Of a stretch of DNA of 22,027 nucleotides, positions 16,787 through 20,560 are shown in pieces. This DNA comes from a virus. The notes under the pieces were generated by a model that did not search any database, was not told the origin of the DNA, and saw nothing but the letters and a program-made list of their open reading frames with translations. The stretch covers positions 1 through 22,027 of IMG/VR virus record IMGVR_UViG_3300031975_000149. One strand, 5' to 3'. Position 1 is the first letter of the stretch. Each line of letters begins with the position of its first letter. The position numbers and the translations under genes were made by a program.

Positions 16787-17575
16787 TTATGCTACGTCCT
16801 CTATTTTTAAAGTGGAGTGTTCACCCCAACCAGTATCAAATACACCTTTAGCATTTGCTTCCGCTATAGATTCAAGTGTTTCTTTTACTGTTTTTATTGA
16901 TGCCTTTAGTAACTCAGGACTTACCTTGTGCAAGTGTGCAATGTAAGGTGTAGACTTTTCTACTGCAATAAAGCTAAAGTTCTTAGCCTTTAACCCTGCC
17001 ATATTACAAGTGTGTACATAGAACGCAGCCTGTATGTGGTATGCATATTTTTTTACCTGTGCCGCAAAGCCTGTAGGCGATGCATCTACTGTAGTCTTGA
17101 TGTCAAATATCTCACCTGTCTCTGGAATGTACAGGTCAGGTCTGGTCTTTAAATTTAAACCAGTATCTTTATCCACTACAAAGATGCTACTCTCTGTAAC
17201 TCTACGCTTATCTTTTAGTATCTTACTACACGTAGTATTGTCTAGTGCAGACTGACACATCTTGTTATGAACATAGTATTCTACTTCTGTCAGAACAACT
17301 TCATCATCCTTTCTATTCTTATACAAGTCCTTAAACATCTTAGATGTCCTTGTCTTTGGACCTTTTATAACTAAGTCACGATCTGGTTCTAACAACGTAG
17401 CATGTACGGCAGAGCCAAGCGCAAATGCTGGGCTATCGCCTAATGGTTTCTGTGCCATGTAGTGCGCAAGCGATTGCTTGCACACCGTTTTAATGGCAGA
17501 CGAGGAGTACCCTACACGTTTGTGATACTCCTCATTTGACATGTCATAGACAATGCCTGACAATGGCATATCCAT
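16787..17575 (-). CDS. RecE-like exonuclease (PD-(D/E)XK)
   Basis: The protein has 262 residues. The N-terminal signature YHKRVGYSSSAIKTV matches exodeoxyribonuclease VIII (RecE)-type nucleases. It is followed by ALGSAVHATLLEP with H58, then RPD with D147, then DIKT with D158 and K160, and later a helix YHIQAAFYVH with Q182. D147 to D158 to K160 has the same spacing as the RecE catalytic residues D748, D759 and K761. Such enzymes digest linear double-stranded DNA from 5' ends. The start at 17575 overlaps the stop of the upstream gene (TAATG). In a phage of this type it probably takes the part of T7 gp6, both in host DNA breakdown and in recombination. A recombinase partner is not obvious, unless it is the neighbour at 17575-18468. 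Confidence 0.85.
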   Translation of the reverse strand: MDMPLSGIVYDMSNEEYHKRVGYSSSAIKTVCKQSLAHYMAQKPLGDSPAFALGSAVHATLLEPDRDLVIKGPKTRTSKMFKDLYKNRKDDEVVLTEVEYYVHNKMCQSALDNTTCSKILKDKRRVTESSIFVVDKDTGLNLKTRPDLYIPETGEIFDIKTTVDASPTGFAAQVKKYAYHIQAAFYVHTCNMAGLKAKNFSFIAVEKSTPYIAHLHKVSPELLKASIKTVKETLESIAEANAKGVFDTGWGEHSTLKIEDVA

Positions 17576-18468
17576 TACACAAAGTCTTCTTCGTTAATGT
17601 CCACAAACTCTTCTACTGTGTTTGTGTCTACGTCCTCATTCTTATGCATGTTGTCATTCCATGCGTTAAGGATGTATGTATTGTAGTTCTCAATCCATGC
17701 CATGAAGTTAGCAAATACTTCTTGAGAACTATTGTCCATGTCAATTGTAGTACCTAAGTCAAGTTCTATCTCTGGTACATAGAAGCTGCTACCGTTTGGT
17801 AGTGGTACTTCTTTTGTCTTACATGACATGTTATGTTGAGGTGGAAGTCGTTGCATCTTAGACAACTTGTTGAACTGATCACCCATAGTCTTAAAGGCAT
17901 CACGGTTATCAATCTCCCAGATAAACGGTGTAGCCTCTACGTCTACTGCATTACCATTCTCATCCGTTGCATTAACCAACTCAACGACACCAAACAATGC
18001 ACGAACACGTTTGATAGACTTGATTAATTCCTTCATGGTATCAGGCAATGCCGCCCAATCCTTGATGAACCCTGCAGGTTTACCACAGTTGAAGCCACCT
18101 TCGTTGTCCTTCATGTCACTGTTAAGATCATTAGCCATAACAGTCTTGAGAAAACGATTCGGTGTATGGTCATTACCCTTGATAAACTTCTTGTACATAA
18201 ACCGCTGAAGGAATGGCCTTATGATTGCACCCTCTGCATAGTATGTAGGATTGTCTGGTATCTCTAGTTTGTATGTACCCCCTGAGATAACCTCTACGTT
18301 CTTCATCTTACCCTTGACTTCTTGCTGGCCCATGAGTGGTGTGTGATGAATACGTAAACGTGCAAGTGTACTTGCCTTGCTTGTACTCTGTGGTGCTTCT
18401 GCGTTCATGCCCATTGCTTGAGCCATAGCTGCGAAGTTGTTTGTGTCTATTGTTGTAACTTGATTCAT
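17575..18468 (-). CDS. Candidate single-stranded DNA-binding protein
   Basis: The protein has 297 residues and I do not recognise a sure family match. It starts with a flexible segment, followed by a beta-rich middle (LARLRIHHTPLMGQQEVKG, then VEVISGGTYKLEIPDN) and a charged helical part. It ends in an acidic tail (NTVEEFVDINEEDFV) of the kind used by phage gp2.5 and bacterial SSB proteins to hold other replication proteins. The gene lies directly between DNA polymerase and exonuclease, and no other SSB is seen. These points favour an ssDNA-binding or annealing protein, but they are inference. AAGGAG precedes the start by 9 nt. It overlaps the exonuclease start by 1 nt. Confidence 0.6.
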   Translation of the reverse strand: MNQVTTIDTNNFAAMAQAMGMNAEAPQSTSKASTLARLRIHHTPLMGQQEVKGKMKNVEVISGGTYKLEIPDNPTYYAEGAIIRPFLQRFMYKKFIKGNDHTPNRFLKTVMANDLNSDMKDNEGGFNCGKPAGFIKDWAALPDTMKELIKSIKRVRALFGVVELVNATDENGNAVDVEATPFIWEIDNRDAFKTMGDQFNKLSKMQRLPPQHNMSCKTKEVPLPNGSSFYVPEIELDLGTTIDMDNSSQEVFANFMAWIENYNTYILNAWNDNMHKNEDVDTNTVEEFVDINEEDFV

Positions 18469-18499: not shown

Positions 18500-18515
18500 G
18501 TGATAGTTATATCAC
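18500..18515 (-). repeat. Small inverted repeat at the end of the polymerase gene
   Basis: GTGATA and TATCAC form a perfect 6-nt stem around a 4-nt loop, and include the stop codon of DNA polymerase. The gap to the next gene (43 nt) is among the longest in the operon. There is no T-run right after it, so it is not a clear terminator. An operator or RNA-processing site is possible. Confidence 0.35.
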
Positions 18516-20560
18516 GCTACGTCTTTTGTGTCAAGCCAGTTTGGACCTATTTTTGCCTCTAATAGTAGAGGGATGTTAAAATCTATGTCCCACTTGCGAT
18601 TGACGATTGCTATTAGTTTGTCATTTGCTGCTTCTATTACTCGTAATACTTTCCTTTCCTCTTCTGGGTGTACGTCAATTACTATTGAGTCATGCACCGT
18701 GTTGACTACGCAACTGCGTAACTTGTTTGCTGTTAGTAGCTTATCTATGTATATCAGAGATATGGGTACAATGTCAGCAGTTGCAAACGATTGAACAGGA
18801 TAATTTTTAATCTGTGTGAAATATGTCACACCCCCGAACCTTCGCCTTGCTACATCAGGGAACGCAAACTCACGCCCCGATGGTGTAGTTATCTTACCAG
18901 TGTTCAATGCTTCACTGGCTAATGCCTTGTGCCAGTTAGCTACACCAGAATACTTTGTCGTAAACTGTTGGTAGTATGCCGCTTCTGCAGGACTACGACC
19001 AAACCCTGACGCTCCATACAAAGGAGCAAAGGTATGTGCCTTGGCATCTTGTCGTGACATAGGCTGACCTGCATCAGATATAACCTTTGCAGTATAACTA
19101 TGCACATCAAATCCTGTGGTTACTTCATCAATGGCAGTCATGTCCTGTGACAGAAAGGCAGCGACACGAAATTCAAGCTGTGCAAAGTCAGCTTCCATAA
19201 TTTTACCACCCTTCCATCGTGATACGAACACCTTTTTGACAGGAAACGTACCGCCACGTGGCATGTTCTGCATATTGGGGTCTGCCCCTGACAAACGGCC
19301 TGTTCCAGTACGATGTTGAAGTAATCTTACGTGCAGCATACCGTCAGGTTTTACATGCGTTGCTATGCCCTCTACGAAGCTGCTGAGATATGTCTCAACT
19401 GCAGACAATCTACGTACATTTTGTAGAAATACAACTGCATCTCTCATGCCCTTGGAACGTGCTACACCTTCAAGGAATACAAGGTTGTCTTTACCCGTAC
19501 CAAAACCATTGGCACTAATCCACTTGGAATTAGGTGGTGTAAACTTTAGCCCCGCAAGGCTAGTAGATATATTCCTATAAGTAAAACCTGTAGAATTACA
19601 TGTGCTGCATCTATTTGATCTGGCATATCGTGTCCCATCCTTCTTTTGTTTCCATATCTGTCCAGTACCATTACACTCACGGCATTGATACGCTTTTTGT
19701 TTGTACAACTTCTCGCTGTATCTACTTACGTTACGTCTGTACTCTGCATCAGGCATACGTTCATCAAACATATCTGCCCATATCTTTTTGTCATGTGGCT
19801 TACGGCTGTAGATAACCCATGACAATTGCTCTGGACTGTTGAGGTTGATAGGTCTGTCACCCATAAGATCACTGGCCTGTTCTTCAAGTGCCATCGTCAA
19901 GGCATTACGTTCATGTTCAAACTCAGTACGCACTTGAGACAGTGCATCTACGTCAACCTTAAACCCACGTTGATATATACGTGCAAGGTGTACGGCTAAC
20001 TGGTTGGTCAACTGTACCGTTGGTACTAGTGAACTGCATCCCTCGTATGATGTCTGCAAAACATTATACAATTGCTGAGTAGCATGTAGATCGTGCGATA
20101 GATACTCTGATAGTTCAGCATGAGGTATATCACGTGTGGAATATCCATCTTTAAAGTACTCCTTTAATGTGTCTTGTTTCTTTGTGTCTAACTCGTACCG
20201 TTCAGCACATGCCTCAAGGGATAGTGGCTGCTTCTGTCCACGCTGCAGTACGTACTCACCCAACAGGGTATCAAATACCTCACCGTCATACTCAAAGCCT
20301 GACTCCCATAGCCAGAGCAAGTCATGCGGTGCGTTGTGTGCAATAAGTAGAGGGGCAGCATCCAATGCGTCTTGCACTATTTGCCGACCCTCTGTGGTAG
20401 GTTGTTGCTCTGCGTGATCGAAAGTTATAATGTTTTCGTTCCCAAGATCATCTAGCATCCCTACCATAACCAATGTATTCTCTGGCTCAAACGGATCAAG
20501 ATGTAACTTGCCATTGCGTTTGACCACTGTGTTCTCTACGTCTAGGGTTAGGTGTTTCAT
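18512..20560 (-). CDS. Family A DNA polymerase with DnaJ-type zinc motif
   Basis: The protein has 682 residues. The 3'-5' exonuclease is seen as D7-V-E9 (LDVENT), N76 to D80 (NAPHD) and Y153 to D157 (YLSHD). The polymerase has motif A with D458 (EADFAQLEFR), motif B with R503 and K507 through YGASG, and motif C with H623-D624 (TVHDSI). Between them are C293-x2-C296-x-G-x-G and C318-x2-C321, matching two of the four CxxCxGxG repeats of DnaJ. I recall this partial DnaJ domain in polymerases of HMO-2011-type marine phages. I set the start at 20560, behind AAAGGGGA, rather than the longer frame at 20599, which overlaps the upstream gene. It replicates phage DNA, probably with a primase-helicase outside the window. 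Confidence 0.95.
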   Translation of the reverse strand: MKHLTLDVENTVVKRNGKLHLDPFEPENTLVMVGMLDDLGNENIITFDHAEQQPTTEGRQIVQDALDAAPLLIAHNAPHDLLWLWESGFEYDGEVFDTLLGEYVLQRGQKQPLSLEACAERYELDTKKQDTLKEYFKDGYSTRDIPHAELSEYLSHDLHATQQLYNVLQTSYEGCSSLVPTVQLTNQLAVHLARIYQRGFKVDVDALSQVRTEFEHERNALTMALEEQASDLMGDRPINLNSPEQLSWVIYSRKPHDKKIWADMFDERMPDAEYRRNVSRYSEKLYKQKAYQCRECNGTGQIWKQKKDGTRYARSNRCSTCNSTGFTYRNISTSLAGLKFTPPNSKWISANGFGTGKDNLVFLEGVARSKGMRDAVVFLQNVRRLSAVETYLSSFVEGIATHVKPDGMLHVRLLQHRTGTGRLSGADPNMQNMPRGGTFPVKKVFVSRWKGGKIMEADFAQLEFRVAAFLSQDMTAIDEVTTGFDVHSYTAKVISDAGQPMSRQDAKAHTFAPLYGASGFGRSPAEAAYYQQFTTKYSGVANWHKALASEALNTGKITTPSGREFAFPDVARRRFGGVTYFTQIKNYPVQSFATADIVPISLIYIDKLLTANKLRSCVVNTVHDSIVIDVHPEEERKVLRVIEAANDKLIAIVNRKWDIDFNIPLLLEAKIGPNWLDTKDVA

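Follow-up and report, generated by a model that had tools for sequence, protein, structure and literature searches.

The family A DNA polymerase encoded in the window, by which we mean the whole 22,027-nucleotide stretch of viral DNA analysed here, a virus record in its own right, carries two CxxCxGxG motifs with invariant cysteines within an insertion of about 94 residues, which by sequence alignment belongs to the thumb and follows immediately on the motif of helix H1. We hold with moderate confidence that this insertion acts as a thumb hairpin that is stiffened by zinc and grips duplex DNA, the tail of an SSB, or both, which is its most likely role; the contact with DNA and the effect on processivity are what we infer. 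The original prediction, that the polymerase has a partial DnaJ-type zinc domain and that such a domain is a mark of HMO-2011-type phages, is correct and had been published earlier, both in a GenBank note and in the passages of three papers that describe the group (PMC6918029, PMC9038755, PMC8528129). In these passages, a "partial DnaJ domain" that separates exonuclease from polymerase is the group's hallmark, and the two CXXCXGXG motifs are a criterion of membership, with 207 metagenomic genomes included; the GenBank entry of HMO-2011 names Pfam PF00684 in its polymerase (ADW08435). The domain is therefore already known as the HMO-2011 hallmark, and what is added here is its position in the thumb and a mechanistic reading. 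As to what the domain does, we found nothing in these passages except a reference to DnaJ in the replication of lambda. The features, with coordinates in the window, are as follows.

18512..20560, minus strand: family A DNA polymerase of HMO-2011 type, 682 aa, 3'-5' exonuclease plus polymerase (ORF translation, Pfam, tblastn)
20036..20560, minus strand: 3'-5' exonuclease domain, aa 1-175, with D7, E9, D80 and D157 (PF01612 match and residue conservation)
19520..19801, minus strand: thumb insertion, aa 254-347, not in bacterial Pol I, net charge +11 (Bst Pol I alignment, translation, charge)
19556..19705, minus strand: putative zinc module, aa 286-335, predicted as strand 286-292, knuckle, hairpin, knuckle, strand 326-335 (AlphaFold2, pLDDT 87-91)
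19661..19684, minus strand: first motif CRECNGTG, aa 293-300, with C293 and C296 (translation; Cys 100% conserved)
19610..19660, minus strand: basic hairpin between the knuckles, aa 301-317, with the KQKKDG turn (charge; G309 invariant)
19586..19609, minus strand: second motif CSTCNSTG, aa 318-325, with C318 and C321 (translation; Cys 100% conserved)
18533..19420, minus strand: polymerase domain, aa 381-676, with D458, R503/K507/F511/Y515 and H623-D624-S625 (PF00476 and residue conservation)
17575..18468, minus strand: next gene downstream of the polymerase, probable SSB, 297 aa, disordered acidic C-terminus (tail charge, model, Foldseek)

The polymerase reading frame runs from an ATG start at 20560 to 18512 on the minus strand. 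Pfam detects PF00476 at residues 381-676 (E = 3e-50) and PF01612 at residues 67-170, the latter with 21.6 bits, slightly below the cut-off of 23.6, and the catalytic motifs of the polymerase are intact in 72-73 of 73 relatives. As had been claimed, C293/C296 and C318/C321 lie between the exonuclease and polymerase matches, the first repeat is perfect, and the second has Ser at its first Gly, a column that holds A, G, S or T across the HMO-2011-type group in our 89-sequence alignment. Two other positions of the enzyme may be recorded here. Motif C of family A polymerases is usually VHDE; in the window polymerase (residues 623-625) it reads VHDS, with the Ser invariant in 73/73 relatives, and the split Zobellviridae-like polymerases described below have VHDS too. 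At residue 511, the equivalent of E. coli Pol I F762, all 73 relatives have Phe; published work has connected this position with phage lifestyle.

Loss of the cysteines in close relatives would have spoken against the domain; all four are 100% conserved in the 89 aligned relatives, where A290, G298, G309, G325 and G337 are invariant as well, in a stretch that otherwise varies more than the remainder of the protein (mean entropy 1.43 bits for the insertion versus 0.67 for the polymerase domain). The motif pair is kept in 197 of 197 relatives covering the region, at a spacing of 17 residues in 194 and 29 in the other 3; the remaining ten of the 207 related loci are fragments without the region (L199, L210), outgroup polymerases or their split halves. 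The suggested search with the DnaJ central domain, PF00684, matched the zinc region (residues 288-329) at E = 9.7e-5 and 23.0 bits, below the Pfam cut-off of 32.7 bits, and matched 69 of 73 diverse members, with a best E of 2.4e-6. The match covers profile positions 13-55 of 65, which we take to be DnaJ repeats 2 and 3 in the numbering of that protein. Since the cysteines are invariant, the pair is kept in all relatives covering the region, and PF00684 is found in 69/73, the motif pair is not a chance occurrence.

From the phmmer alignment with Bst Pol I, the polymerase segment 'INLNSPEQLSWVIYSR' (residues 238-253) pairs with 'FNINSPKQLGVILFEK', and the alignment resumes at residue 381, leaving residues 254-380 (127 aa) opposite 31 aa of Bst Pol I. 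Because the alignment runs through 'INLNSPEQLSWVIYSR' before resuming at 381, we place the insertion, residues 254-347, in the thumb directly after the H1 motif.

The fold of the module is predicted. An AlphaFold2 model built from 73 sequences has a mean pLDDT of 91.7 (87-91 over the module), and gives strands 286-292/326-335, short strands 301-302/316-317 and bridges 305/311, a pattern symmetric about residue 309, as for one antiparallel hairpin. It follows from this symmetry that the CxxC knuckles 293-300 and 318-325 would face each other across the beta-hairpin, with their cysteines close together. A model with the four cysteines far apart would have counted against the original prediction; the strands are symmetric beside the CxxC turns, and the closeness implied by this strand pattern is compatible with it. 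The module presumably binds one zinc ion, as a single-zinc, half-DnaJ-type finger, judging from the motif. In a PDB fold search with the polymerase, the best 50 matches were all family A polymerases and uninformative on the finger.

The segment between the knuckles is basic. Residues 299-317 have a mean charge of +4.9 (range 0 to +9) in 73 relatives, and in the window polymerase the insertion has a net charge of +11 versus -19 for the exonuclease domain. The tip itself is conserved, with K/R at 304 in 67/73, K/R at 306 in 70/73 and G309 in 73/73. We propose the following picture for this replicative family A polymerase of an HMO-2011-type marine podovirus. The ~94 residues inserted at the thumb tip, just after helix H1, would have as their core the two CxxC knuckles facing across the beta-hairpin, with one zinc ion presumably bound. 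The zinc would stiffen the hairpin, whose K-x-K-K-D-G tip is conserved and basic, and the hairpin would lie against the backbone of the new duplex leaving the thumb, giving more grip and processivity; it may also dock the acidic tail of the co-encoded SSB. There are precedents: in the polymerases of T7 and human mitochondria a processivity factor sits on a thumb insertion, and the plant organellar enzymes have thumb insertions that were modelled beside duplex DNA (PMC7699545). Against a grip on DNA it can be said that the conserved lysines may be there for a protein partner.

The Zobellviridae-like polymerases (MEP401, ICP2/Saratov-12) have a basic hairpin inserted at the same place after helix H1, but this insert is shorter and without Cys, and the polymerase is encoded in two genes. 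It carries a conserved basic turn, GHYKTGxRxGEVKYKW, with no CxxC there in 18/18 representatives, and its alignment with the zinc insert is below statistical support. Because this sister clade has a Cys-free yet basic KTG-turn hairpin at the same site, we infer, short of proof, that what is constant in function is the basic thumb hairpin and not zinc alone; in the HMO-2011 lineage, zinc would serve to stiffen it. In every locus examined, the break between the two frames of the Zobellviridae-like enzyme falls shortly before motif A, mostly following 'LFxSRYGE', and the spacer between them differs in length (L091 601-2711; L090 553-2646; L215, L226, L233, L249, L251, L254). StenR_269 and L201 have no comparable insert, and in StenR_269 a thioredoxin-domain gene (L092 135-401) lies close upstream of the insert-less polymerase gene.

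The distribution of the zinc-bearing form is restricted. Among 50,697 phage records, the top tblastn matches of the window polymerase are HMO-2011-type isolates, namely CRP-345 (79%), CRP-1 (78%) and HMO-2011 (68.5%), with the rest down to 36%. The polymerases of this type (HMO-2011 ADW08435, CRP-1/2/3, CRP-345, HTVC033P and others) have an identical domain order and the two CXXCXGXG motifs, at 36-79% full-length identity between the window polymerase and the named isolates. Nothing essential differs, and the window polymerase is one more of that kind, closest to CRP-345: it is a family A enzyme with a 3'-5' exonuclease, it has the two motifs given as a criterion of the group in the relevant passage of PMC9038755, and it falls in the clade. 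The gene order of the window (thymidylate synthase, polymerase, unknown protein, exonuclease, endonuclease, ribonucleotide reductase, MazG) is that of CRP-345 and largely that of HMO-2011. With the zinc columns left out of the tree, the window polymerase groups with L018, CRP-345 and others, and the 32 zinc-bearing polymerases form one side of a branch with a support of 97, a value from a quick search with long outgroup branches. The distribution on this tree can thus be explained by a single gain of the module, with no need for a loss. Searching the same 50,697 records with two inserts gave significant tblastn matches only in HMO-2011-type isolates. A megaphage match to the insert (E = 0.01) was rejected, being to a Cys-repeat protein and not a polymerase; that protein (L212 1268-2959, LR756504.1) has a long C-terminal run of CxxCxGxG-like repeats and is unrelated to the polymerase. 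When 84,980 species genomes were scanned, the 9 loci obtained all lay on marine MAG or single-cell contigs, which we took as phage contigs binned with their hosts, and a cellular origin of the insert was set aside.

Could the insertion correspond to the thioredoxin-binding domain of T7 and bring in a thioredoxin-like processivity factor from the host? The T7 domain, which binds thioredoxin, is likewise a thumb insertion with basic residues; both insertions are roughly 70-95 residues long, and MAFFT and hhalign superpose them, though we think that these aligners were misled by the similar length. A small H1-motif profile did not find the FNPSS of T7, but BLAST of T7 polymerase with Klenow (E = 3e-18) identified FNPSS at 334 as its homologous H1 motif, and the extra residues of T7 polymerase, which we take to be the thioredoxin-binding domain, precede this motif and helix H1. 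The T7 type is defined by an insertion between thumb helices H and H1. The zinc insert comes after the H1 motif, and by alignment the two are therefore in adjacent, not identical, loops of the thumb tip; the T7-Klenow and query-Bst alignments place them on opposite sides of H1, and on this basis their identity was rejected. Thus, of the suggestion that the insertion sits in the thumb region where T7 polymerase holds thioredoxin, the thumb holds and the T7 loop does not. The T7 domain also lacks a zinc motif, the window shows no recognisable thioredoxin gene, and StenR_269, with its nearby thioredoxin-domain gene, is without the insert; a thioredoxin-recruiting role is very unlikely. We give hardly any credence to a chaperone-related insert that recruits host DnaK/DnaJ or aids folding during replication, although PF00684 similarity favours it, and a passage of PMC9038755 (2022) points to the critical part that E. 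coli DnaJ plays in lambda replication. The polymerase insert has the CxxCxGxG knuckle pairs in common with the DnaJ central domain; DnaJ, however, has four repeats and a J domain, while the polymerase has two repeats, set in its thumb, and no Pfam match to a J domain at E up to 10. A DnaJ/Hsp40 assignment calls for four CxxCxGxG repeats and PF00684 above cut-off, as against two repeats and 23.0 versus 32.7 bits here. The finger type also scores equally in non-chaperones such as anti-TRAP and the lambda Q-type antiterminator phrog_6060, which the polymerase matches at E = 1.7e-5; the best PDB sequence match, 7ubj, is of the same antiterminator type but non-significant (E = 0.8). The finger of these antiterminators (CRDCHGTG...CGRCKGVG) has a spacing similar to that of the polymerase motifs, but it is part of a transcription factor and shows no homology to the polymerase beyond the finger; for the lambda Q finger, a part in recognising DNA has been proposed (PMC9371919). 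Because only two of four repeats are present, there is no J domain, and antiterminators and anti-TRAP score as well, a chaperone role is unlikely.

The 297-aa product of the next gene bears on a further alternative. Pfam gave no match for it and PHROG none of significance; its acidic, predicted-disordered tail ends in ...EEFVDINEEDFV, and its model is beta-rich with residues 279-297 disordered. A similar-sized ORF lies downstream of the polymerase in most relatives, most with an acidic C-terminus, the charge of which is -9 or -10 in the window's subgroup and weaker or absent in some others. Foldseek against viral models gave 37 matches below E = 0.001, most of them unnamed; the functionally named ones are SSBs (A0A8D9C9R8, E = 2.2e-5; A0A1B4XWR7, C1KFR2 and A0A8S5VTG1; range E = 2e-5 to 8e-4). 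A PDB fold search gave no significant match, the support coming from the viral library only. From position, tail and fold, this protein is probably the unannotated SSB of HMO-2011-type phages. In T7 polymerase, basic patches of the thumb insert bind the acidic tails of gp2.5 and gp4. Such tail docking in T7 is noted in PMC7699545, and a lambda Q zinc finger of similar type was docked onto the acidic NusA N-terminal domain (PMC7171158). By analogy, the insert could be mainly a protein-docking site, its basic zinc hairpin binding the acidic C-terminal tail of the neighbouring SSB (or a helicase), which would be compatible with a grip on DNA. The acidic tails of the window protein and most of its counterparts, the SSB matches among many unnamed ones, and an anticorrelation between insert and tail charge (Spearman -0.44 over 154 pairs, with kinship ignored, and not used as proof) all favour docking as the main role, which we regard as possible, if rather doubtful: the tails in L157, L158, L161 and L167 are neutral or slightly basic (0 to +2) while the basic zinc hairpin is kept, and the neighbour is itself a probable SSB, with no significant PDB match. 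A purely structural part for the zinc module, as a staple or redox-sensitive brace of the thumb that touches neither DNA nor a partner directly, is unlikely. The Cys and Gly are indeed the most conserved positions and many surface positions vary, but the tip, at 304, 306 and 309, is conserved too, more than a staple needs, and nearly every member has a positive charge between its knuckles.

Taken together, we suggest tentatively that these abundant marine phages may have solved polymerase processivity and/or SSB coupling independently, by a zinc-stiffened basic hairpin at the thumb tip, at a site unlike that of T7 and with an SSB encoded by the next gene. Bioinformatically, the domain has long served to recognise a phage group that is among the most abundant in the sea. 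Its position at the thumb tip, off the thioredoxin loop of T7, its basic tip and the adjoining gene for a probable SSB make the "partial DnaJ domain" biochemically testable.
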